Positions 25,501 to 49,158 of a DNA stretch of 64,000 nucleotides are shown one piece after another; the stretch's first letter is position 1, and each line of letters opens with the position of its first letter. The notes under the pieces were generated by a model that saw only the letters and a program-made list of their open reading frames with translations, did no database searches and had not been told where the DNA came from. The translations under genes and the position numbers were made by a program. The stretch is taken from the NCBI GenBank assembly GCA_021464245.1, contig JADCRB010000026.1, positions 3,634,187 to 3,698,186 on the forward strand, given 5' to 3'. Origin of the DNA: Carallia brachiata. Lineage: Eukaryota > Streptophyta > Magnoliopsida > Malpighiales > Rhizophoraceae.

Positions 25501-26255
25501 AGAATCTGAATTTTAAATTAAAAAAAAAAAATGCATCACCTATCTATATATCTATGCCAATAGCACGAAATGTAGCTAAGGACTCACTCTTATGAATTTT
25601 TTTTTTTTTAACTTTCTTAAATCTAGATCAACTGGTTGGGGGAACGAGACAATTAGAGAGGTTGAGAGTTTGAATCCCAACCTCATACTTACTCTCATGA
25701 ATCTATGACTACTTCTCACTGTAAATTAAATAGCGATAAATTCAAATTCGGCAAATGAGAAACAATTTTCGGGTTTGTTCCGCTAAAATTCACGATCAGC
25801 ATTCAAGCAAAGCAGCACAAACTTCCCGAGTTCGTGCCTTTTTTCATTTTTAGGGAAAAATTTAATTAAATGGAACAAAAATCGATAAATACAGGTTGTG
25901 ATACACAGATTAACAGTAAAATGAAGAAAAGTAGAAGTACCTCGTAAGCGGCAAGGACTCGAACGAAGCGTTGAGCGGCGGCGGTTGAGTCGTCGTCGTC
26001 CGAATCGGCGAGGTCCGGATGAGTTTCTTTGGCCAATTTCCGAAACGACGCTTTGATTTCGGCGAACGAGCTGGTCTCCGAAACTCCTAAGATATCGTAA
26101 GCGTTCTCGGCCGGGAACTCGGACCGAGTTGGGTCAGTGCTCGTACTACTGTAACACTGAATCCTCCGACTCGGTTTCGGGTACGAGAAGATGTAATAGC
26201 GATTCGGTTGGTAAATGGTACGATTCGACCGTATAGAAACAAAATAGAGAATCAT
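22540..26255 (-). CDS. J-domain (DnaJ/Hsp40) co-chaperone, probably organelle-targeted, with a one-base slip
   Basis: J proteins stimulate the Hsp70 ATPase. Exons on the - strand are 26255-25941, 25505-24616, 24310-24225, 23595-23455 and 22684-22540, all GT-AG. The start at 26255 gives a basic, Ser-rich leader (MILYFVSIRSNRTIYQ) typical of mitochondrial or plastid import; an in-frame upstream ATG at 26300 is less presequence-like. The J domain spans roughly residues 45-100, with YDILGV, the essential HPD (KETHPDLAD), and AYEILSDSEKRAHYDRY across intron 1. The long middle region is unfamiliar. The C-terminal exons are Cys-rich, then basic (CECRCTR, EPRCSMHDIGGWYVETFGKD, DAKRRKQSVRNIVE). In exon 2 the frame slips at the T run 24925-24927 (one base short). 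Restored, it has about 525 residues. A SINE-like sequence lies in intron 1. Confidence 0.85.
25610..25735 (+). repeat. tRNA-derived SINE-like remnant in intron 1 of the J-domain gene
   Basis: TAGATCAACTGG (A-box-like) followed about 45 bp on by GAGTTTGAATCCC (B-box-like) resembles an internal RNA polymerase III promoter. It lies antisense to the host gene. No poly-A tail or target duplication was found, so the call is tentative. Confidence 0.35.
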
Positions 26256-26499
26256 TTTCTTTTGTTTCTCGTTTCTTGTTTCCTTTTTGCAGCGGGCCAA
26301 ATGGAAATGGTGATAACTGTAACCTCTGCTTGTTAGAAAGGAATAAAAAAGAAAACAAAAAACTCGATGTATTTTTCATTGTTTGGTGCAGTATGAGAAA
26401 TGATTGGAAAAGAAAGATTTCGTCGTGTCAGAAGCAGCAGCAACAGCAGCAACAGCCATTTGAAAAAAAAAAAAAACACATGAAAGCAAATTGACTGAA

Positions 26500-34100: not shown

Positions 34101-35291
34101 CATGTGCTTGTAGTGGGACACTCTGTTAGGAACATGTTGGTTCCAAGTTTAGTCTTGTTAGATTTATAATGCAATTATCCTCTAAACTCCATTGTGCCAA
34201 AAAAAAAAAATTGATGTAACCATCTAAAATAAAGAGCATATTTTTGTTTATTTTAAAATAGAAAGTTTATATCTATACAAGCGCCAAAATAAAGTAAAAT
34301 TACAAACATAATTATCTCTTAATAACAATAATACTGATAATAATATTTCATTTTCAAAGATAAGATTGATTATTGATATTATTAAAATTATAACGTATAA
34401 AAAAATAAAAAGGCGAGTTGGTTGGCGTGTAAACTTCCACGTATCAATCACAAAAGTATGTTCGGAAAATAACGGCTAGAGAACAAGTACCCGTGAACCA
34501 GAACACGTAATATTCAATATTTTCTTCAATTTTCTCCCTTATTTATCTGATTATCGTTCCAAAACAATTTGCAATTAGAGAATTTATCATCACGAGAGCC
34601 ATTGATTCTAGCATTTGAACACTACATTTTCGTCAGAGACAAAATTTGGACCATTGTGAGGCCCACTCGGGTGAGGTGAGGATGGTTCTCGTAAGCTGTA
34701 AAGGGGTGGACGATAGCTTTCTTTCTTGGTCTTGTTAGGCTTGAAAAATAATAATGGAGGTTGGAGGGCTTTTCAGCCATTGTTCTTTAATATGCAGTAA
34801 TAAAAAAATGATAAATTTCAGATAGGAAAACAAAATATTAACAAAAATACTTTATAAATACATATAAGTAAAAATATAATAAACACTCAATAGTTTAAAT
34901 TATTATATTATAAAAAAATATTTAAATTTTAAAAATAAAAAATTATTAAATATTTTTAAATAAATTATTAAAACCGTGTCGCTGAAAATATGGGAGAAAA
35001 TCTCGAGGGTAGGGAGAGAGGGGAGGGGATGGACACAAAAAACTGAACTCACGTGACGAAAGCTAGCATAATAAGCTGTACAGTCCCATACACAAACTCT
35101 GCTTTTTGTCTGAACGCAATCATGCAAGGAACAGACAACCACCCACCGTCTGTTTCTCCTCAAATCTCTTGTTAATTTTGACTCTCAGAGCAGCTTCTGT
35201 GTTTAGCCATTAAACCATGTCCTGCCCAAGGCTTACGCTTGTGTTTCTATTCATTGCGTCTGTGTCTCACTATCAGGGTCTCGTACCGAAA

Positions 35292-37588
35292 ATGAAGACG
35301 AGCGCATTTAAGCTTCTCATTTTTGTTCTCCTTCTGGGTCTTTGCCACGTGTCCATGGCTGCCGAGCCGGAGAAGGAGACCAAAACACAGAGGAAAACTT
35401 ACATAGTTCACATGTCCAAAGCCGAGATGCCGGCGGGCTTCGAGCAGCATACTCACTGGTACGACTCGTCTCTCAAATCGGTGTCTGAGTCGGCCCAAAT
35501 GCTGTACACTTACGACAATGTGATCCACGGATTTTCCACTCGGTTGACGGCCGAGGAGGCCGAGCTTCTCGAGAGCCAACCTGGGATTCTGTCCGTGTTG
35601 CCGGAGTTGAGATACGAGTTGCACACGACTCGGACACCTGAGTTCTTGGGACTCGACAAGAGCGCCGATTTGTTTCCCGAGTCTGACTCGGCTAGCGACG
35701 TCATAATCGGTGTCTTGGACACCGGAGTTTGGCCGGAAAGCAAGAGCTTTGTGGATACTGGGATGGGTCCGGTGCCCAGTAGCTGGAGAGGCCAGTGTGA
35801 ATCCGGCACCAATTTCACCTCTGCAAATTGTAACCGCAAACTGATTGGCGCGAGGTTCTTTTCTAAGGGATACGAGGCCACATTAGGCCCTATCGATGAA
35901 TCCAAGGAGTCCAAATCCCCGCGAGACGACGACGGCCACGGCACCCACACCGCGTCCACAGCAGGCGGCTCTGTGGTGGAAGGCGCCAGTCTTTTTGGGT
36001 ACGCCCCAGGGAGGGCACGTGGGATGGCTACGCGCGCGAGGCTCGCCGCATACAAGGTGTGCTGGATCGGTGGTTGCTTTAGTTCCGATATATTGGCTGC
36101 AATCGAAAAGGCCATTGACGATGGGGTCAATGTCCTTTCATTGTCGCTTGGTGGAAGTATGACTGATTATTACAGAGACAGCGTGGCAATCGGAGCTTTT
36201 GCGGCTATGCAGAAAGGAATTGTAGTCTCCTGCTCGGCTGGCAATTCAGGCCCAAGCTCATACAGTCTGTCTAATGTAGCCCCCTGGATTACGACCGTGG
36301 GGGCCGGCACACTGGATCGAGATTTCCCGGCTTTTGTTAGTCTGGGCAACGGGCAAAACTACTCCGGCGTTTCTCTATATAGAGGGAGCGATTTGCCAGG
36401 AAAGCTTTTGCCTTTTGTGTATGCCGCCAATGCTAGTAATGTTACCAACGGGAATTTATGCATGATGGGCACTTTGATTCCGGAGCAAGTTGCAGGGAAA
36501 TTTGTGCTGTGCGATCGTGGCGTGAACGCTAGAGTCCAGAAGGGAGCTGTTGTGCAAGCGGCCGGTGGTTTGGGTATGGTTTTAGCCAACACCGCAGCCA
36601 ATGGTGAAGAATTGGTAGCTGACGCCCACTTGTTGCCTGCTACGGCGGTGGGTCAGAAAACTGGGGACGCCATTAAGAGCTATTTGTCAACAGAACGAAA
36701 CCCACCGCCACAATCCTTTTCGAAGGCACCAAGTTGGGAATCCAACCGTCTCCGGTGGTGGCGTCGTTTAGCTCCAGAGGGCCGAATTCCATCACCCCGG
36801 ATGTCCTCAAGCCGGATATGATTGCTCCAGGTGTCAACATTTTGGCAGGATGGTCCGGTTCAGTGGGTCCTACAGGGCTAGCCTCAGATTCCAGGCGCGT
36901 CGATTTTAACATCATCTCAGGAACCTCCATGTCTTGCCCGCATGTCAGCGGCTTGGCGGCTCTTCTCAAGGCGGCGCATCCAGAATGGAGCCCTGCGGCG
37001 GTCCGATCAGCGTTAATGACCACAGCCTATGTGACTTGCAAGAACGGCCAGAAGTTGCAAGACATTGCCACCGGAAAAGACTCCACGCCGTACGATCACG
37101 GTGCGGGACACGTGGAACCAGCATCGGCCCTCAATCCGGGCCTCATTTATGATCTAACGGCTGATGATTACCTGGCCTTCCTCTGCGCATTAAACTACAC
37201 GCCAACGCAAATCACCAGCCTTGCTCGAAGGAACTATACATGCGATCCAACCAAAAAATACAGTGTGACCGATCTGAACTACCCATCTTTCGCCGTCAAT
37301 TTCGACACCACGCAATCAAACGGTGGCGGCGTGATCAAGCACACCCGAACACTTACCAATGTGGGGCCAGCAGGGACATACAAGGCGTCAATTTCACCGC
37401 AATCCCCGGGAGTTAAGATTCTGGTGGAGCCCGCAACATTAACCTTCAGCAAGGTAAATGAGAAGCAATCTTATACGGTTACCTTCACCGGAAGCTCAAT
37501 GCCAACCAATACCAACAGCTTCGCTCGTTTAGTATGGTCCGACGGGAAACACACTGTTGGGAGTCCAATAGCTATTAGTTGGACTTAA
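35292..37588 (+). CDS. Subtilisin-like serine protease, SBT1 type, intronless, with a one-base slip
   Basis: Secreted plant subtilase acting in the cell wall, closest in appearance to SBT1.7/ARA12 proteins. ATG 35292 gives a clean signal peptide ([20 protein letters not shown]); an in-frame ATG at 35217 adds 25 residues and is less likely. An I9 propeptide ([13 protein letters not shown]) follows, with the mature start near [10 protein letters not shown] (residue 112). Catalytic residues are Asp143 ([11 protein letters not shown]), His216 ([11 protein letters not shown]), oxyanion Asn318 (SCSAGNSGP) and the Ser of [14 protein letters not shown] domain is inserted between Asn and Ser, and a fibronectin III-like C-terminus ends at the stop 37586-37588. 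The frame slips at the C run 36701-36703, one base short. Restored, it has about 765 residues, the family's usual size. No intron is needed, as usual for SBT1. Confidence 0.92.
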
Positions 37589-38792: not shown

Positions 38793-39320
38793 TCGAATTG
38801 AGTGGACGTCGTTGTAAAGCGTAAATTTCGAGTCTAAAACAATTAAACTCGAAAATATAAAAATAAATTACAAATAAAAATTGTAAAGTAAAAGAAAATT
38901 TACGTGGGGTCGATCTCCGTAGATCCTCCGATTAGTGTTCCTTTTTTGACTCTGTCAAGGGCTGCACGAGCTTGATCTTGACAGAAATAATTTCCACCGC
39001 TTTTTCTTGAACTGGATAGACTGAAACTGTGTCTGATTTGGATTTTGACTACGTTTAGGAACCGTAGAGATTGATCTGAGCCGATCTGGTTAATTTCACC
39101 GAGGGTCGAATGGACTTGTTCTCGGATGAGTGCCTGGATTTTGCTGAGGGCCGTATGAGTTAATCCCAGCCGGATTTGTAATATTTTGATTTTTTTTTTA
39201 CTCTCTCTTTTTTTTTTTTTCTTTTTTTTTTTTTTCGCCTGCTTTCTTTTTTTTTTTTTTTTTTTTCTTCTGCTGGCTTTCTTCTTTTTTCTCTGCTGCA
39301 TTTCTTCAATTGGGGAGGCC

Positions 39321-39327
39321 ATTTATA
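39321..39327 (-). promoter_or_regulatory. LTR TATA box inside a palindrome (3' LTR copy)
   Basis: On the - strand TATAAAT is flanked by GGGGAGGCC and its complement GGCCTCCCC (39312-39320 and 39328-39336). It fits the LTR promoter in position and strand. Confidence 0.6.
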
Positions 39328-39344
39328 GGCCTCCCCCACCTGCC

Positions 39345-39420
39345 TGCCACCAACCAATTGGTTGGTGGCATTAAGGTTGGCAGCTGCCAACCTTGACTTC
39401 AAGGTTGGCGGCTGCCAACC
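39345..39420. repeat. Cluster of GGTTGG palindromes in the LTR
   Basis: A 26-bp perfect palindrome (39345-39370, centre CCAATTGG), a 22-bp perfect palindrome (39373-39394, centre CAGCTG), and a hairpin with 7-bp arms (39403-39420). The same set recurs in the other LTR at about 48645-48721. Confidence 0.9.
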
Positions 39421-39443
39421 AAGATTTTTTTTTTTTTTAATTA

Positions 39444-40086
39444 TTAGTTTACAAATGCCCCCACTTCAAGGGTCGGTAAGAAGATTTTTACAGAGATAAT
39501 TCGAACCGAGTCTTGAAGTCCAGTTTGAAATTTGGAAAGTCCTGATGAACATTGAATCTTGGAGTCTTCTATCTTTGACCATGTCTGCTGTTGTTGGATC
39601 GCAATAGGAAACCGATATGATCTTGAGAAGTTAGCAGCCCAGCCAATATAAAAATTGAATCTTGGCTCCAGGTGCATTCGAGCTTCCATAGCCCGCAAAG
39701 GATTTTTTATATCTCTTAAAGTTCCAGCTCTGGTGAGGATGATCCGGTAGGCAAAGAACTTGAACCTCCCCAAGAGGAAGGCCCAGGACCTTGGAACTTC
39801 AAGACCGGCACAGAGAGACTGACTGTAGTGATGATTCCAAGTCTGCTTCGACGTAAGGAGAGTAGTTGGAACTTCCCCGTACATCGCCGCATCCAAAGGA
39901 AGATTAGGATAATTGCAGCGTCTCATCCCTCTGTGTAGATGTGAACTAAGGAGAGTAGTTGGAACTCCATGACACCGATGGCGTTAGGGATCCCTCGAGG
40001 AAGACTACTCCTTCTTTTCTTAGCTCGTGCGCCTCCAACTTCTTGATCGAAGAACTTCCTGAGACAAGTGCAGAGACTAGCCATTT
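39444..40086 (-). other. Unidentified accessory reading frames of the gypsy element
   Basis: An open frame of 160 codons (39926-39444) runs into the LTR edge. Upstream, a second short frame starts near 40086 (MASLCTCLRKFFDQEVGG). Neither shows a known domain. They sit between the WUS-type sequence and the 3' LTR, where Tat elements often carry extra sequence. A 20-bp direct repeat (TAAGGAGAGTAGTTGGAACT) occurs at 39854 and 39947. Whether either frame is translated is unknown. Confidence 0.35.
39454..39470 (-). other. Polypurine tract of the gypsy element
   Basis: Read on the - strand, CTTGAAGTGGGGGCATT directly precedes the 3' LTR, where the plus-strand primer tract is expected. Confidence 0.7.
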
Positions 40087-40378
40087 TCTTTTGAGAAAGA
40101 AGAGCTGAGGGGTGAGTATTACAACTCGGGAATGCAATATATATATACATACAATAAAGTTTTTTTTTTTTTTTTTTTTTTTTTTTGAAAAGTCAAAAAA
40201 GAAGGTACGCAGAATCGAGTAGGGCATCCACGTCCCTTTCCTGCATAAGAGACAAAAGAGGCAGCGGCTGACGCGTGTCACGAAAGTCGTTACCGTGTGT
40301 GCAGAAGTCGTTGCCGTGTGCTGCAGAAGTCGTTACCGTGTGCTGCCAAAGTCGTTGCACCTTATCTTGTCGGCCGTC

Positions 40379-40986
40379 CTAGCGGGGCCCGAGGTGCAAC
40401 TCCAAGTCAAGCTCGACCTCGTCTGGTGGGCCGATGATGTTGACGTCGCTTTCCGGCTGGTTGATGCTGCCGGAATATTCTGGAAAGAGAGGCAAAGTTT
40501 CGCCGGAATACTCCTTTCTGCTAGAAAAATTCCTCCTAGACTTAAGTATCTAGGAGGGATGAACCCTTGGCTGACTCCGTAAGACCACCAGGACCAGCAT
40601 GCATGCTCCCATGGGCTACGGCTTTGATGAACATACCGTGGAGAGACCATTGCAGTGGAAGAACTCGGACCTGCTTCATTTGAGGGCGAAGCTGTACCAG
40701 TGGGATTACTATCGGAACGACAGACTGTTCTTTGGAAAAGCAGTTCTCAGTGCTGGTTTCTTCCTGCTTCTCCGATTCTGGAACCAATAAAACACATTTT
40801 TTCCTTCGATTGCCCCGAGCGGGCGCAATCGTGAGACAAGTTGGTAAATTTGAGATGCACTAGGAATAATACCTCCATTGTTGTGGAAGACTTCCTCCAA
40901 AATTTGCAGTTGTGCCATGGTCGGTTGCCACCTTGTGCGGGTGACCTTTCTTCTCCCTTGTCTTGAGGTTCTGCAACTGGTTCCAT
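40379..40986 (-). pseudogene. Captured WUSCHEL/WOX-type homeobox sequence inside the gypsy element
   Basis: WUS/WOX proteins are plant homeodomain transcription factors controlling stem-cell and organ identity. On the - strand 40942-40757 encodes a WUS-type homeodomain: TRTRWQPTMAQLQILEEVF, then GAIEGKNVFYWFQNRRSRKK. Downstream at 40498-40481 is TLPLFP, the WUS-box signature. At 40411-40391 is LDLELHL, an EAR-like repressor motif, three codons before the stop at 40381-40379. Homeodomain and tail motifs lie in the same frame, but the 200-bp linker carries stops in that frame; a second frame is open across most of it, so two one-base shifts or mutations are implied. The likeliest ATG (40986) is also one frame off. 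No intron is evident, as expected from capture through RNA. Sense matches the element's other genes. Expression is unknown. Confidence 0.8.
40757..40942 (-). other. WUS-type homeodomain coding segment
   Basis: About 62 codons. The helix 3 core NVFYWFQNRR and the preceding EGK are typical of WUS/WOX rather than of HD-ZIP, KNOX or BEL homeodomains, whose recognition helix reads otherwise. The frame is unbroken across the whole domain. Confidence 0.85.
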
Positions 40987-41119
40987 CTTTCTTGTGGCAG
41001 AGGAGCAAAGGTCTTGGTATGTGGTGAAGATCGGTTGAGACTGATGCTGAGTTTCAGACTCAAACCCTCCGTCGCTTTTATATTTTTGGGCCGTTCACAG
41101 TTTATACTCATGCGGGCCA

Positions 41120-41350
41120 GGAGTTGGATTGGATTTTGAACTTGGGTTCTGGACTGTGTTGGAACTTGGAATTTTTGGGTTTTGGGCTTTGGATTGGATT
41201 TGGGTCGAGTGTTTGGGTTTGACTTGGATTTTTGGATTGGGTCGAGTGTTTGGGTTTGGATTTGGACTTTTTGGATTTGGGTTGAGTGTTTGGGTTTGGA
41301 CTCTGAATTGGGCTCAAGTGTTTGGGTTTGGATTTTCGCTTGGTCTTTCA
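41120..41350. repeat. Minisatellite in the gypsy 3' region
   Basis: A G/T-rich unit with GGGTYGAGTGTTTGGGTTTG occurs four times (near 41203, 41238, 41279 and 41314), about 35-41 bp apart, with looser copies to the left. Tandem arrays between coding region and 3' LTR are known for Tat/Ogre-type elements. Confidence 0.85.
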
Positions 41351-41456
41351 GATCGGGACTTCGCAACTTTTTTTTTTTTTGATTTTTTTTGATTTTTTTT
41401 TGATTTTTTTTTTTTTTTTTTTTTGATTTTTTTTTTGATTTTTTTTTTAAACATAT

Positions 41457-42550
41457 TTACACATAATACTGTTTCAGAAATTTACCATTGATTGGGCCGA
41501 TTCGGACGCCTTCTTGGTCTGACAGCATGTAAGCGTTGTGAGTGTAGGCCTCCTGCACTAAGTATGGCCCGTCCCATTTGGAAGTAAGCTTGTCACCAGG
41601 CCGATGCTTCATGTTGATGGGCCGTCGCACTGTAAGAACAAGGTCTCCAACTTGAAAAGATCGAGGGCGGACCCTGCGGTTGAACGTGTTGGTGAGCCGG
41701 GCTTGGTAGCACTCAAGTTGCTGTTGTGCTTCGAGCCTCCTTTCATCTAGGGCTTCTAACTCATCCAGACGTAGGCGAGCATTCTCCTCCTGTGTGAGTC
41801 CTTCCAGAACAGCCATGCGCAGGGATGAAATCTGTGTTTCCAACGGCAGTATTGCTTCGACACCGTAGACAAGTGAGTATGGCGTCGCCTGTGTTGGAGT
41901 CCGGTAAGTTGTACGATACGCCCATAATGCCTCCGGAATTCTGTCATGCCAATCTCTTTTGGATTTAGAGACTACCTTCCGCAACAGGTTGCATAAGGTC
42001 TTGTTGAATGCTTCGGCCAAGCCATTTGCTGGGGCATTGTACATGGATGACTTGTACTGCTTGAACTTGAACTTCTCGCAGAGCTTGTCGATCAAGCTGT
42101 TGTAGAATTGCTTGCCATTATCAGTGATGATGAATCGAGGGACTCCATAGCGATAGATCAGCTGAGTCCGGATGAAATTGGCAACATGCTCCTTCTTTAC
42201 CTCTCTAAGTGGAATGGCTTCAGCCCATTTTGAGAAGTAGTCGGTTGCTGCGAGGATGTACAGGTGACCCAGGGATGACTTTGGCAAGGGCCCCACTAAG
42301 TCGAGACCCCAAGCTTCAAAGGGCCAGGATGAGACAGTTGGATGCAGTGGCTCCGGTGGTTGATGTATGTAATTCGCATGAAATTGACAAGCTTGACAAG
42401 TTTTAGCAAATTCAATTGAATCACGTACCATGGTTGGCCAGTAGTATCCCATCCTTCTGAGTTGGAAGTGCAACTTAGGCCCCGATTGATGTCCGCCACA
42501 AACACCAGAATGTGCTTCAGTGAGAGCCTGTTTTGCCTCTTCATTGGCTA
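41457..42550 (-). pseudogene. Gypsy integrase
   Basis: DDE integrase inserting the cDNA. An HHCC zinc region (HSGVCGGHQ and CQACQ) begins before the first Met at 42473. The core has WGLDLVGPLP, TDNGKQF and the Glu of NGLAEAFNKTL, and the tail has an RPRSFQVGDLVL-type GPY/F-like region (KWDGPYLV). From 42473 to 41457, 338 codons are open. The zinc finger reads through without a start of its own because it belongs to a polyprotein; the frame upstream is broken. Confidence 0.92.
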
Positions 42551-42769
42551 GGCAGCGAAGTAGAACTCCATCAAAAGACCTTCGATACAGAGCATCCTTG
42601 AGATATATGAACGGGGAGCTCGTCGTTGAATTTCTGTCTTATGACGACGATCTTCGGCAGCTTCCCGTGCTGTAGATAGTCAATGATTGGTTGGCGCCAA
42701 TCTCGTCCTCCGCGAGACGTACAGATACAGCGTTGGCTGCTGTAGTTTCTTCATCATCCTTCTGTGGCA

Positions 42770-43387
42770 CTATCCATTTCTGCATACGGCAACAACTGTA
42801 GCCTGGATTTCTGACTTTGCAAGAGAAGTGGCCAGGTTAGCCAACGCGTCTGCCTGAGTGTTTTCTCGTCGAGGCACATGCTCCAAGGTGATGCTTTCAA
42901 ATTCATCCATTAGCTGTCGAGCACGTTGATGGTAAGGCGCAAGGTCCTCTTTCTTCACGTCATACAATCCTGTAAGTTGGTTGATGACGAGCTGGGAATC
43001 TCCATGGACTTCTATAGTTGGAATCTTCATATCGACAGCCATTTGAAGACCAATGATCAAAGCCTGGTATTCAGCAACATTATTTGAACATAACTCACCG
43101 AGAATGATAGCATATGGTAGTATTTGTCGTTGAGGAGTGACAAACACTATGCCGGCACCAGCACCATCACGCCTTGCTGCACCATCAAAGAACATCGTCC
43201 ATGGTGGTAGTGTCTCAATGTAAAAGACCTCTTCATCTGGAAGATCATCTGTGAACTCCCAATCTGACGGAACAGGGTGATCTGCAAGGAAGTCTGCTAG
43301 AGCTTGTCCTTTGACTGCTTTTTGAGGCACGTAGACAATGTCGTAGCTTTGTAGGATTACTGCCCACTTGGCAAGTCGTCCTGACAA
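42770..43387 (-). pseudogene. Gypsy second (archaeal-type) RNase H
   Basis: About 120 codons with the four acidic positions readable: FFDGAARRDGAGAG, NVAEYQALIIGL, VHGDSQLVINQL and NTQADALANLA. This extra domain after the usual RNase H marks Tat-lineage elements. Confidence 0.88.
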
Positions 43388-43690
43388 GATTGGTCTGATA
43401 AGATATATTTGACAGGATCAGCTCTGGCAATGAGACGTACCGTGTGAGCTTGCATGTAGTGCCTCAGCTTGTCAATGGCAAAGAACAGTGCTAGACATGT
43501 CTTTTCAATGGGCGAATAACTCAGCTCCGGACCGTTTAGTGTTCTGCTCAAGTAGTACAGGGCAACTTCCTTTCCCTGCTCGTTTTCCTGTGCAAGCAAG
43601 GCTCCCAAAGATCTTTCCTGCTGCAATGTAGAGAATCAACGACTTTCCTTGAATTGGAGCACCTAGGACCGGTGGATTGGAAAGGTACTT
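43357..43690 (-). pseudogene. Gypsy RNase H (RT-linked)
   Basis: Shows YYLSRTLNGPELSYSPIEK and LRHYMQAHTV, the connection/RNase H part of gypsy pol. It overlaps the next domain in a different frame, so a shift separates them. Confidence 0.85.
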
Positions 43691-43692
43691 CT

Positions 43693-44782
43693 TTATGCTT
43701 CAAAGGCTTTGCTGCAAGCTTCGTCCCACTCGAAGTTGACATCCTTCTTCATCAACCGATGGAAAGGTTGACATCTCCCAGCTAAATTGGAGATGAAACG
43801 GCGAATGTAGGCCAGCTTTCCTTGTAGACTTCGCAGCTCGTGCAGGTTTTTAGGTTCAGGCATCTTTTGAATTGCCTCAACCTTTGACTGATCAACTTCG
43901 ATTCCACGATGGCGCACCACGAACCCAAGAAACTTTCCTGATGTGACACCGAATGCGCACTTGAGAGGGTTCATTTTGAGCTGATGCCTCCGAAGTCTTT
44001 CGAACACTGTCTTGAGATCCTCGAGGTGGTCTTTGCGCTTCTTAGTCTTTACAACTAAGTCATCAACATAACATTCTACAATCTTGTGCAGCATGTCATC
44101 AAAAATTTTTTGCATAGCACGTTGATAAGTGGCGCCAGCATTTTTCAATCCAAACGGCATAACTTTGTAGCAGTATATACCTTTTGGGGTGCGGAATGCT
44201 GTCAACTCCTCGTCTTCTGGTGCCATTCTGATTTGGTTATAGCCTGAAGAACCATCCATGAAGTAACAATGCTTCGTGACCCGTTGTTGCATCGACTGTG
44301 ATCTCCGTTATGGGCAATGGAAAGTCATCTTTCGGGCAGGCCTTGTTAAGATCTCGAAAATCAACACATACCCTCAACTGTCCATTCTTCTTTCTTACCG
44401 GGACAATGTTGGCAATCCACGTTGGGTAGGTGACCTCTCGGATGAAGCCAGCATTGATCAGCTTGTTCACCTCCTCCTCGATTTGTGGAATGAGTTCCGG
44501 GCGGAACCGTCGTTGTGGCTGCTTGACAGAACGAACACCCTTCTTTACTGCTAGACGATGCACCGCAATTTTCGGGTCAAGTCCAGGCATTTCTTTGTAA
44601 CTCCATGCGAACACGTCCCTGTATTGACTTAATACCTGAACATATTCTTGCTCTTCTTCTGCAGTAAGTAAAGCACTTACAAATGTAGGTCGAGGATCTT
44701 CCGGAGAGCCAAGATTGACCTCCTTGAGTTCATCAACAGTTGCTTGGCCACCATCTTCAAGTTCCGGGGGAGCCTCCTTCAC
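43693..44782 (-). pseudogene. Gypsy reverse transcriptase
   Basis: Copies element RNA into DNA. Visible are RPELIPQIEEEVNKLINAGF, VRKKNGQLRVCVDFRDLNK, DGSSGYNQIRM, FGLKNAGATYQ and the catalytic YVDDLVVK, then FLGFVV and the thumb. It is split by a frame change near 44240-44290 (two overlapping open frames). The catalytic residues are intact. Confidence 0.93.
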
Positions 44783-45281
44783 TTCACCATCTGATGAGTC
44801 GGAATCAGCCTCCTCGCTAATTGTGACATGAAATGCAGAACCTCTGACTTCACCTTCTTTGTTTGACTGGATAAGCCTGTCTGTTTGGTGGTGGTGGTGA
44901 TGGCACGTGCATCAGCTGCTCGGCTTCGGCTCTTTAGCGTGATCCGCACAGGTGACTTCTCCTGATAGCCTAAGCCAGGTCGGGACTGTGATGTTTGAGA
45001 AGCGGCGCCATGTGTGGACGGCAGCGTACCCATTGTGCTCGGGTTTGAAAGTCATAGCCCGCCTTTGCCAAAAGCTTGTATGCATTAGGATCAAATCCTT
45101 CATGTGTTCTTCTTTCTGGAAGTGAGCCGCCTTCGACTGCCCCCGTGTGTGGTTTGACGAAGCCTTTTAATGGTTTTGAGACAAAACCGGCTCAATCTTT
45201 GGTATCGGCAGAGTGTAAGTCTCCTTCAGGTTGTGCAGCTCCTTTGTTTTGGGTTGGCTATGACCTTGCTCCTGTTTAAGA

Positions 45282-45983
45282 TCAATACAATAAGAGAAAG
45301 GGGGTTGACCTTCTGAGCGTCGTGACTTGGCACATAGCGTAGGACTGGAGTGGAGCTTGAAGATGCAACATCCTTCGGACGAGTTCAGCAGGCTGTGGCA
45401 GCTTTTCATTTGTTGGAGCCTGGGGTTGGGCATTGGCAGGTTCTTCGACAGCTTTTCCCTTTTTGTGGATGCCCCCAGTCCAAGTAGCTTTTGACGGAAT
45501 GATCTCCGGATTGTCTGTGTCAGTGTAGAAGACTGCATCCGCCAAATGTGATTCAGCATCATCGAACGGCTTTAAGTCAGCATTGACCTTTTGAACGCCA
45601 CCATTGTAGTACTTGAAGCACTGATGCAGGCTTGAGAGCACAACTCCATTTCCATGAATCCACGGTCGTCCTAGCAACATCTTATATGTGGTACGTGCAT
45701 CAATCACGTGAAATAGAGTGCTAGAAGTGAGATTACCGATAGTTAGCTCCAAGCGAATCATCCCAATTGCTTTCTGTCCTCCTTGATTAAAGCCATGAAT
45801 CATCAAGCGGCTGTCTGATAATTCATCAATGCCAATGCCGAGCTCCTTTATGGTGGATTTTGGGATAATATTGACGGCTGAACCATCGTCAATCAGAATA
45901 CGTCGGACCTTCTGTTCTTTCACATAGCCTGATACATACATATGGGCCGATTGTGGGTTTGGACCCCAGCAGGAGATCCTCAT
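45282..45983 (-). pseudogene. Gypsy aspartic protease region
   Basis: VRRILIDDGSAVNIIPK is the active-site motif with DDG, common in this lineage, where DTG/DSG is usual elsewhere. A later LLGRPWIH matches the conserved C-terminal protease block. The frame shifts after about 45300. Confidence 0.85.
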
Positions 45984-46322
45984 CTGAAAATGAGATAGCA
46001 GAGTAACATCCGACGTGATTTTGGTCCGCCTGTTGCTCCGCGAGTTGAATTCTTAATGGCAGAGGTTCAGCTGAGGTCTGGAGAGTATTGCTGACTTGAT
46101 TTTGCCACACTTCTGTTGATTGCAAAGTTATAAACAGTTGAGGGTTAGCGAGAAGGGTTTGGAGAGCTTCATATACCTTCTCCGTTGTCGACTTTTTGTT
46201 GTCGAGCGGCTCCTCCTTACGGTGTGTTCACTCTTCTGATGGTTTTGAAGTGATGGTGGTCTGGTTTGCGAGGTTATGCCTTCCTGGTCCAGAATGATTT
46301 TATTCTGGCTTTTGAGCTTCAT

Positions 46323-47928
46323 GATTAGCTCCTTCAGGACGAAACACTTCTCGGTTGGATGACTTACTATCCGGTGATATTTGCAGAATCTGGATCGCTG
46401 ACTCGATCCTTTTCATTCGGCCGCTTGCACTCTGGGAGTTCGATCAGCTTCGCCTCCAAGAGTTGTTCAAGAATGTCGGGGACGTCTGAGTCGGGGAATG
46501 GATACTGCTTCTGCTCCAGCTCTCGCAATGTCACCTTCCGCCTTTCCTGTTGTTTTGGCTGAGTTATTTGGGTCGGAGGATTTACCTTAGCTTTGGCGCC
46601 CACTTTTACTGGTGCGGCTTCAACAGTCATCACTTCTTTCCTTTTCCGGAGCTGTTGGGTTTCTTAATCTCCCTTCTGCCCCCTTGCTGGTCCAACTGGA
46701 TGGGAACCGTGCCTCCGGAAGTCTGGATGATGCTTATCTCCATATCATGTGCGCGGGTCGCCAGTTCTTCGAAAGTTCGGGGTTTGACACCCTGCAGGAT
46801 GTATAACAGCTCCCAATGCATTCCCTGGATGCACATCTCTACGGCAGAAGTCTCCGTCAGGCGATCTTTGCAGTCCAAGCTGAGGGCACGCCATCTGTTG
46901 ATGTATTCGACAACGGGCTCTCCTTTCTTTGTTTGGTGCTGGTAAGCTCCATCATACTTACCGTCCTTCGAGTGCTGAAAAATCTGTTGAGGAACTCTCG
47001 TTGTAGCTGTTCCCAACTGTCGATCGATTCTGGTTCAAGATTTATGAACCAGGTGAAAGCGGTCTCCCTGAGTGAACGAACAAACTGCTTCACCAAGAGA
47101 TCTCCATAAGTCCCTGCGTTGTTGCAGGTTTCAACGAAGTGGGCGATGTGCTGTTTGGGATCGCCTCGTCCGTCGAATTGTTGAAATTTGGGCGGCTGGT
47201 AGCCCAAGGGCATGTTGAGACTTTCGATCCGTCTGGTGTACGGTTTGACGTACATCTGCGATCCTTGGAAGGATGTAGCTTGTTGCAGTCGGATCGTATT
47301 GGCTATCATTTCCTGCAATTGTTGAACAGATAGCGAAGCTAGAATTTGAGGGTGGCAGCTGTGTAGAACTACCTGGTCGCTTTTCTGCAGGGAAGACGTC
47401 GGCTGGTGTGGCTTCTGGAGTGAAACCGGGTGGATATGGTTGCTCCTCGCGGATTTCGGGATCAACTTGGATCGGGGCTTTTCCTTTGAGAGCTGCGATC
47501 TGTTGATCTTTTTCCTCCACGACTCTGATCAGCTGTAAAATTTTGTTCTCCAATTCTGAAATCCTTTCCTCTGTGCTGGTTGTGTTGGTCATCATGACGG
47601 CAACAGATGAGGCTCCGGGAAAGACTGGGGGAGAAAACTCTTCTGATTCTTCTGTGTGATGATTTTGTTGAGCAGGCTTCGTCGTGTTGCCCCCGATTTC
47701 GATCGGGGTGGGTGATCGACTCCTCCATGCGGCAAGAGAGTCAGGGGAGAGATCCTGTTGTGCAAGCTGTGGACTCTCCATTTCGACATTTTGTCGGGTT
47801 TGGACGGCAAGAAATTGTGTCCGTCCCCGGGTTTCTGGACCTGCGTACCCAGGTAGGGTAGTTGATGCAGGCAATGGAGCCGTTGCCTTCTTTTTTGTGG
47901 CAGCAGTTGTACTCCTTTTCGGTGCCAT
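46323..47928 (-). pseudogene. Gypsy gag
   Basis: The capsid polyprotein begins at ATG 47928 (MAPKRSTTAATKKK). It shows a coiled-coil-like segment (ERISELENKILQLIRVVEEK), then in a second frame the gag core (PPKFQQFDGRGDPKQHIAHF, LRETAFTWFINLEP) and in a third WRALSLDCKDRL. Near 46480-46380 follows PFPDSDVPDILEQLL, then a KYHRIVSHP-like zinc region. At least three frame changes occur. Confidence 0.88.
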
Positions 47929-48117
47929 TTGATGTGCTGAACACCTGTAAAATTTTTTTTTTTTTTTTTTTACTTTTTTTACTTTTTACTTTTTACTTTT
48001 ACTTTTTTTTTTTTACTTTTTTTTACTTTTTTTTTTTTTACTTTTTTTTTTTACTCTCGGCTCCCCTTTTACCTCTTTTTTTTTTTTTTTAGGAACAAGA
48101 GATGGGAGGTGAAGTTG

Positions 48118-48139
48118 TCCCACCGAGCGTGCCAAAAAT
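48118..48139 (-). other. Primer-binding region of the gypsy element
   Basis: On the - strand AATTTTTGGCACGCTCGGTG begins at the edge of the 5' LTR, the position of the tRNA primer site. The matching tRNA was not identified. Confidence 0.5.
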
Positions 48140-48757
48140 TTTAAAGCGTAAATTTCGAGCCTAAAACAATTACTCAATACAAAAATAAATTACAAATAAA
48201 AATTGTAAAGTAAAAGAAAATTTACGTGGGGTCGATCTCCGTAGATCCTCCGATTAGTGTTCCTTTTTTGACTCCGTCAAGGGCTGCACGAGCTTGATCT
48301 TGACAGAAATAATTTCCACCGCTTTTTCTTGAACTGGATAGACTGAAACTGTGTCTGATTTGGATGTTTTGACTACGTTTAGGAACCGTAGAGATTTGAT
48401 CTGAGCCGATCTGGATTAATTTCACCGAGGGTCGAATAGACTTGTTCTCGGATGAGCTGCCTGGATTTTGCTGAGGGCCGTATGAGGTTTAATCCCAGCC
48501 GGATTTATAATATTTTGATTTTTTTTTTTATCTCTCTCTTTTTTTTTTCTTTTTTTTTTTTTTCTTCTGCTAGCTTCTTTCTTTTTTTCTCTGCTGCTAT
48601 TTGCTTCAATTTGGGAAGGCAATTTATAGGCCTCCCCCACCTGCTGCCACCAACCAATTGGTTGGTGGCATTAAAGGTTGGCAGCTGCCAACCTTGACTT
48701 CAAGGTTGGCGGCTGCCAACCAAGATTTTTTTTTTTTTTTTAAATTATTAGTTTACA
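48140..48757 (-). repeat. 5' LTR of the gypsy element
   Basis: 618 bp. It ends TTTACA next to GTCGT. Its inner edge reads TTTAAAGCG where the other LTR has TGTAAAGCG, so the terminal TG is changed here. A TATA motif (TATAAAT, - strand) lies at 48622-48628, with a less perfect flanking palindrome than in the other LTR. Confidence 0.92.
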
Positions 48758-49158
48758 GTCGTTTTCCGTTGGAAAACGTGGGGAGTACTGTTTTGACACT
48801 GTGCTGACACTGTTTACACAGTAAAAAAATAATAAAATAATAATATTTTTTACTGTTTACACAGTGAAAAATAAGAAAATAATAATATTTTCACTGTTTG
48901 CACAGTAAAAAATTAATAAAATAATAATAAAATATTTCATTTTACATAATTTCACCAAATACAGAATAATATTTTCAGCACCACAGCCAAACACCGTAAT
49001 TGAAAATAAAATTCCGGAATTTCATTGTCTTCAGTAAATGATATTCTAGAATTTCATTTTCGTCAGCAAACAAACGGACCCTTAATTTACCTAGACACCA
49101 TTAATTTGACGTAGGCTACGTGCTTACATATTTTAGGAGTGGGTGACTGTAAGGATAG

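Follow-up and report, generated by a model that had tools for sequence, protein, structure and literature searches.

How does a regulator of plant stem cells come to lie inside a retrotransposon, and does it serve the element that carries it? The question is raised by a stretch of 64,000 nucleotides from Carallia brachiata (contig JADCRB010000026.1, positions 3,634,187 to 3,698,186 of the forward strand; hereafter the window), in which a long terminal repeat (LTR) retrotransposon of the Tat type of Gypsy elements occupies positions 38813-48757 on the minus strand. Between its integrase and its 3' LTR, in the element's own sense, sits a gene of the WUSCHEL (WUS) type of WOX homeobox genes (ATG at 40986, last stop base at 40379), with a homeodomain, a WUS-box and an EAR-like tail, and the same gene is carried by hundreds of copies of the element. 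Judging by its motifs, we lean towards the reading that the captured gene encodes an accessory protein of the element, namely a TOPLESS-recruiting repressor.

Anatomy of the captured gene

The homeodomain (40757-40939, minus strand, as are all gene and element parts given below) lies within an open frame of 114 codons (40709-41053) and matches the Pfam Homeodomain family with an E-value of 6.2e-13. Its closest solved chains are those of WUSCHEL (E 2.2e-19) and STENOFOLIA (E 3.2e-17), and a Foldseek search with an AlphaFold2 single-sequence model (mean pLDDT 70; 87-92 over residues 41-90) returned WUS or STENOFOLIA for all of the top 11 chains. A preliminary description of this DNA, made from the sequence letters, had proposed a Tat-type element with a sense-oriented WUS-type homeobox gene, and domains, position and strand bear this out, including the WOX-type matches just given. 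It had named the homeodomain alone, which is present but understates the gene: the frame ending at 40379 holds the WUS-box TLPLFP (40481-40498) and, 23 codons past the end of the box, the EAR-like motif LDLELHL (40391-40411), with a stop three codons later. The limits that it assigned to its homeobox segment coincide with the ATG and the last stop base of the entire WUS-type gene.

Across all six reading frames of the window, the pattern TL.LFP occurs a single time. Taken by itself it appeared in 3 of 5000 local shuffles and in 15 of 100 whole-window shuffles, and LxLxL near a stop is common alone (49 in the window against 48 expected); the order box, LxLxL, stop was obtained in none of the 5000 local and none of the 100 whole-window shuffles. 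A chance match of the homeobox is thus ruled out by the Pfam, solved-chain and Foldseek matches together with the shuffles of motif order. A protein database search gave six candidates, none at E 0.001, in a library apparently poor in plant proteins, and looking for viral contigs with homeodomain and with integrase gave nothing.

The copy in the window is broken: its ATG is out of frame with the homeodomain, and stops separate homeodomain from box. The unbroken frame originally claimed therefore holds for the homeodomain part and fails for the gene as a whole. Assembly error is a likely, though unproven, cause. A host subtilase gene in the same window (I9, Peptidase_S8, PA and fn3_6; 35214-37585, plus strand) is split over two overlapping frames, which suggests assembly indels or a pseudogene, and the two LTRs of the element, aligned with another aligner and mask than the LTR pairs of other copies, differ at 20 of 533 compared columns, with 10-12 gap events, some of which are misaligned columns.

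Copies across the genome

Sharing of the homeobox segment among copies of the element proved to be family-wide. In the searched genome (337.5 Mb in 164 contigs), a 28-base homeobox probe with at most three mismatches matched 822 places (435 + 387) and a 30-base integrase probe 757 places (404 + 353), in keeping with an amplified family; reversed control probes for both gave no match genome-wide. A homeodomain search, in which the best 150 of 1348 first-look candidates were scored and 56 of these places were fetched by position, yielded 45 element copies and 11 host WOX-type genes, to which one more host gene, obtained separately, was added to give 12. Among 20 stretches of 4.2 kb, 19 were element copies and one was a WOX9-like host gene. 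All 19 copies, which had been chosen by homeodomain score, contained the captured gene and some 3' LTR, and 17 contained the integrase at least partly. To reduce this bias, we picked 10 places from 100 listed integrase-probe matches (nine of the 11 exact matches outside the window and one with a single mismatch). The captured gene was found at the expected place in every one of them, with 79-97% identity over 430-621 matched columns.

Start, homeodomain, box, tail and stop are joined in one open frame of 203-212 codons in 10 of the 45 homeodomain-picked copies, a count that used a strict motif rule, may miss some copies and includes one frame running beyond the usual stop. LTR pairs were used for dating; 20 were tried, two were too short and 18 were scored. 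Their Kimura two-parameter distances (K) range from 0.004 to 0.072, plus an unreliable 0.178, with a median of 0.047 for the 18, all of them rough values, since in two scored pairs (K 0.178 and 0.049) the comparison covered fewer than 200 columns and some alignments exceed the length of the window LTR. The spread, with its lowest value of 0.004, points to amplification over a long period, by at least one pair recently.

Two loci (L033 and L035) have the captured gene and some LTR with no match to the integrase of the window element and are perhaps non-autonomous members. In addition, two homeobox-probe matches lie 862 bp apart on one strand (G000 contig C1, 424773 and 425635), which might mean that one element carries the gene twice.

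Structure and lineage of the element

The limits of the element were correctly given in the preliminary description: a 3' LTR, in element sense (38813-39453), pairs with a 5' LTR (48139-48757, inner end approximate), and a 5-bp target-site duplication, GTCGT, flanks both ends (38808-38812 on the left, 48758-48762 on the right). A stretch resembling a primer-binding site, recognized by eye, adjoins the 5' LTR (48117-48134). Pfam identified, in element order, gag (PF03732; 46857-47528), an aspartic protease (PF13650; 45285-46052; E 5.7e-4, below the Pfam cut-off), reverse transcriptase (PF00078; 43693-44307), the native RNase H (PF17917; 43357-43635), an additional RNase H (PF13456; 42770-43417) and integrase (Integrase_H2C2 and rve; 41457-42638). 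Native and additional RNase H are adjacent and followed by the integrase; a second RNase H next to the native one has been described for Tat elements of plants (PMC10508981). The lineage assignment is based on this domain order.

The region between pol and the 3' LTR spans about 2.0 kb (39454-41456). The part of it that separates the captured gene from the 3' LTR (39454-40378) gave no Pfam domain among the open frames tested. This part holds a 22-bp tandem repeat of 3.4 copies (40284-40356); tandem repeats are reported to be frequent between pol and the 3' LTR of Retand elements (PMC11963269). Elsewhere in the window lies a gene with a DnaJ domain (25869-26375, minus strand).

Donor and origin of the gene

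Which gene was taken up? The 12 host WOX-type genes comprise what we take, from resemblance and general knowledge of the family, to be two WUS-like, two WOX1-like, two WOX4-like and two WOX13-like genes and one each of the WOX2-like, WOX3-like, WOX5-like and WOX9-like kind. The element homeodomain is 37-48% identical to them, with 48% to the WOX3-like gene and 47% and 46% to the WUS-like ones, so that identity alone fails to single out WUS; to Arabidopsis WUS and to STENOFOLIA it is 51% each, over a shorter compared stretch. Other features are more selective. An extra homeodomain residue is common to the element and the two WUS-like genes and is present in no others of the 12. Of the seven host genes whose fetched stretch includes a box, just the two WUS-like ones have TLPLFP, the others having TLQLFP or TLELFP. 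Furthermore, the start MEP of the element gene resembles that of one host WUS-like gene, and the host WUS-like and WOX5-like genes have a similar EAR-like tail. With moderate confidence, we regard a WUS-type gene as the donor. In a homeodomain tree, the check on the donor proposed at the outset, six element rows form one clade (98/94). Its branch is 1.51 changes per column long, is not placed beside WUS and calls for a long-branch warning.

The capture appears to be old, or to have been followed by fast change, because homeodomain identity to host WUS is only about 47% despite the common extra residue. A recent donor among the host WOX genes was not borne out, as homeodomain identity to the 12 examined is 37-48%, although a donor gene beyond these is conceivable. 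From homeodomain to box the element has 300 nt, and the two host WUS-like genes have 1,173 and 1,066 nt; the comparison of exon structure thus revealed no intron-sized gap in the element. The homeodomain is contained in one exon (PMC5501002), so the lost intron is judged from the homeodomain-to-box distance alone. The intron-less form would be consistent with the capture of a spliced RNA, by analogy with retroviral transduction. A retroposed mRNA with flanking duplication was considered and rejected, for the flanks tested had no repeat of at least 8 bp; an A-run of 27 follows the captured gene in element sense (40160-40186), and A/T runs occur throughout the element. The WUS-like, WOX1-like and WOX4-like host genes are found in pairs (L010, L014, L015, L016, L021 and L022), which suggests an old genome duplication.

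A role for the captured protein?

A Tat-type Gypsy family has acquired, apparently long ago, a WUS-type WOX gene that lacks introns, and this gene has spread alongside gag-pol to the approximately 800 detected genome places. If it is an accessory gene of the element, as we think most likely, events may run as follows. Its RNA would be driven by the LTR, which lies on the same strand, and a separate protein would be made, given that the integrase frame closes at 41457 and that the captured gene starts from an ATG of its own. In the nucleus the homeodomain would bind WUS-like sites (solved WUS structures contain TAAT, TGAA and G-box sites), and WUS-box and EAR-like tail would recruit TOPLESS-type co-repressors to repress nearby genes, so that expression or transposition of the element may be favoured in the meristem cells leading to the germ line. 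For Medicago HEADLESS, WUS-box and EAR-like motif are described as jointly required for TOPLESS binding (PMC6305195). A survey of Retand elements argues that extra open reading frames (ORFs) between pol and the 3' LTR may code for proteins that bind DNA and regulate the element (PMC11963269).

To weigh this reading, we tallied codons that differ between copies by a single base, took each variant once, and compared the tallies with those expected under neutrality given the base changes observed; gapped codons, codons with two or three base differences and columns with fewer than 10 usable copies were dropped. In the comparison of variants seen in at least three copies with singletons, variants in exactly two copies were dropped as well. 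For variants in at least three copies, the integrase (37 rows) had four nonsynonymous (N) and 34 synonymous (S) changes (omega 0.06, p 6e-12), and a non-coding control scored as if it were coding (46 rows) had 101 N/42 S (omega 1.10, p 0.65). Among singletons, omega was 0.56 for the integrase (p 0.0003), 0.73 for the captured gene (p 0.086) and 1.01 for the non-coding control. Within the gene, the homeodomain gave the lower values: 11 N/17 S for variants in at least two homeodomain-picked copies (omega 0.30, p 0.0018), and for variants in at least three copies an omega of 0.29 (p 0.078) with 0.93 outside it (p 0.78). For all variants in the homeodomain-picked rows, omega was 0.42 in the homeodomain (p 0.0008) and 0.82 outside (p 0.19; Fisher p 0.004). 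The homeodomain omega of this set is biased, because the score of that very domain had served to rank the copies. Outside the homeodomain, the 10 integrase-picked copies had 75 N/37 S and two stops (omega 0.79, p 0.25; Fisher test against the homeodomain p 0.14). The six leucines of box and EAR motif are kept in 44/44, 45/46, 44/46, 46/46, 44/45 and 45/45 of the usable copies among 46 rows; some of their neighbours vary (37/45, 37/46 and 22/43), while others are stable (e.g. 44/45 and 44/46).

Several results weigh against a role of the protein. The captured gene as a whole, for variants in at least three copies (46 rows), had 46 N/25 S (omega 0.82, p 0.44), and outside the homeodomain variants in at least two copies gave 70 N/37 S (omega 0.81, p 0.29). 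In the integrase-picked copies the homeodomain had 15 N/14 S and four stops (omega 0.52, p 0.076), and leucines of the EAR tail are changed in some of these copies. The full-frame test was failed by 35 of the 45 homeodomain-picked copies. Among deletions present in at least two copies, counted against one reference copy, multiples of three made up two of nine in the gene, one of 18 in the integrase and eight of 46 in the non-coding control; as frame is not kept even in the integrase, assembly noise may swamp this test. Constraint on the integrase is strong, and that on the captured gene is at best moderate and unproven.

These results are what one would expect if a transduced WUS gene were an idle passenger, copied along inside the element and now useless to it. 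We take this main alternative seriously, as quite possible if on the unlikely side: the omega of the gene is not different from 1, compared with 0.06 for the integrase and 1.10 for the non-coding control, and most copies fail the full-frame test. On the other side, the gene has diverged far from host WUS, yet 10 of the 45 copies still join start, homeodomain, box, tail and stop in a single frame. Both samples give the homeodomain an omega below 1, albeit significantly in the biased one only, and the gene is kept in all 10 copies picked by integrase. Weak protein constraint would equally suit a segment that matters as DNA, as a regulatory or packaging sequence, but the persistence of homeodomain, box and tail as protein motifs makes this improbable. 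Similarly improbable is that amplified WOX copies were retained as useful to the plant. The two Vigna species with WOX amplification are coastal, and the report on them raises coastal adaptation and leaves the question open (PMC10714607), whereas the copies studied here show LTR-retrotransposon spread and weak constraint, with no trait link in these data. Finally, the arrangement cannot be put down to a separate nested insertion or an assembly chimera, to which the broken frames of the window copy and the split subtilase might point: it recurs in all 10 integrase-picked copies, and homeobox matches run into the hundreds.

The preferred reading, an accessory repressor, can be carried a step further, more tentatively. 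WUS has been linked to antiviral immunity. Conceivably, though we think it less likely than not, the element uses its diverged WUS-type, TOPLESS-recruiting repressor to manipulate shoot stem cells, through gene silencing, antiviral state or cell identity, for its own expression and inheritance. The gene might then, by a similarly speculative analogy, be to the retrotransposon what an oncogene or a transcription regulator is to a virus. Should the protein be produced, one genome would contain hundreds of mobile genes for a diverged form of a plant stem-cell master regulator with both repressor motifs, and the use of developmental regulators by retrotransposons to reach the germ line would become directly testable. 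It would also set a trap for WOX counts in annotated genomes, where transposon copies may be taken for WOX genes.

Comparison with known systems

Compared with host WUS, for instance Medicago HEADLESS (PMC6305195), the element gene has the same N-terminal homeodomain, WUS-box and C-terminal EAR-like motif, and it shares the WUS-specific extra homeodomain residue. It differs in having RRSRKK after the recognition helix in place of HKARER, as well as in its 46-47% homeodomain identity to the two host WUS-like genes and the want of an intron-sized gap before the box.

With Retand and other Tat Gypsy elements, as these are described in PMC11963269 and PMC10508981, the element has in common gag-pol, native and additional RNase H and an extra ORF between pol and the 3' LTR. 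In Retand, however, those extra ORFs that have a known domain run antisense, most of them encoding TRP28, whereas here the gene is in sense and encodes a host-derived WUS-type homeodomain; the region between pol and the 3' LTR measures at least 2.9 kb in the survey and about 2.0 kb here (PMC11963269). By that 2025 account of 617 genomes, no sense ORF of at least 600 bp with a known domain occurs in this region (PMC11963269). TRP28 (PF04195) was absent from four plus-strand frames tested in our element, which did not amount to a full scan of that strand. Gene-transducing LTR elements like maize Bs1 (PMC7264820) also carry a host gene in element sense. Transduced ORFs are stated to occur in one or a few copies (PMC11963269), in contrast to the hundreds of copies of the WUS-type gene found here.

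In two further papers, what is described is transposons beside host WOX genes, not WOX genes inside transposons (PMC5501002, PMC6482515). The published precedent that we found in the open-licence literature for LTR-borne amplification of WOX genes is one paragraph of a 2023 meeting report (PMC10714607), according to which Vigna riukiuensis has more than 1000 WOX copies and V. marina many, most of them flanked by identical LTRs and bearing target duplications. The statement in the preliminary description that it knew of no such family is not supported in the light of that report. Both cases have a WOX gene between LTRs with a target duplication, which is shown here for the window copy, and both have very many copies, the number being of the same order here; the two are likened by description only. 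LTR-borne WOX amplification was thus already known from Vigna. The Vigna paragraph is without lineage, gene clade, motifs or constraint, and these are the details that the Carallia family adds: a Tat-type element, a WUS-type gene with WUS-box and EAR tail, and an estimate of the constraint upon it.
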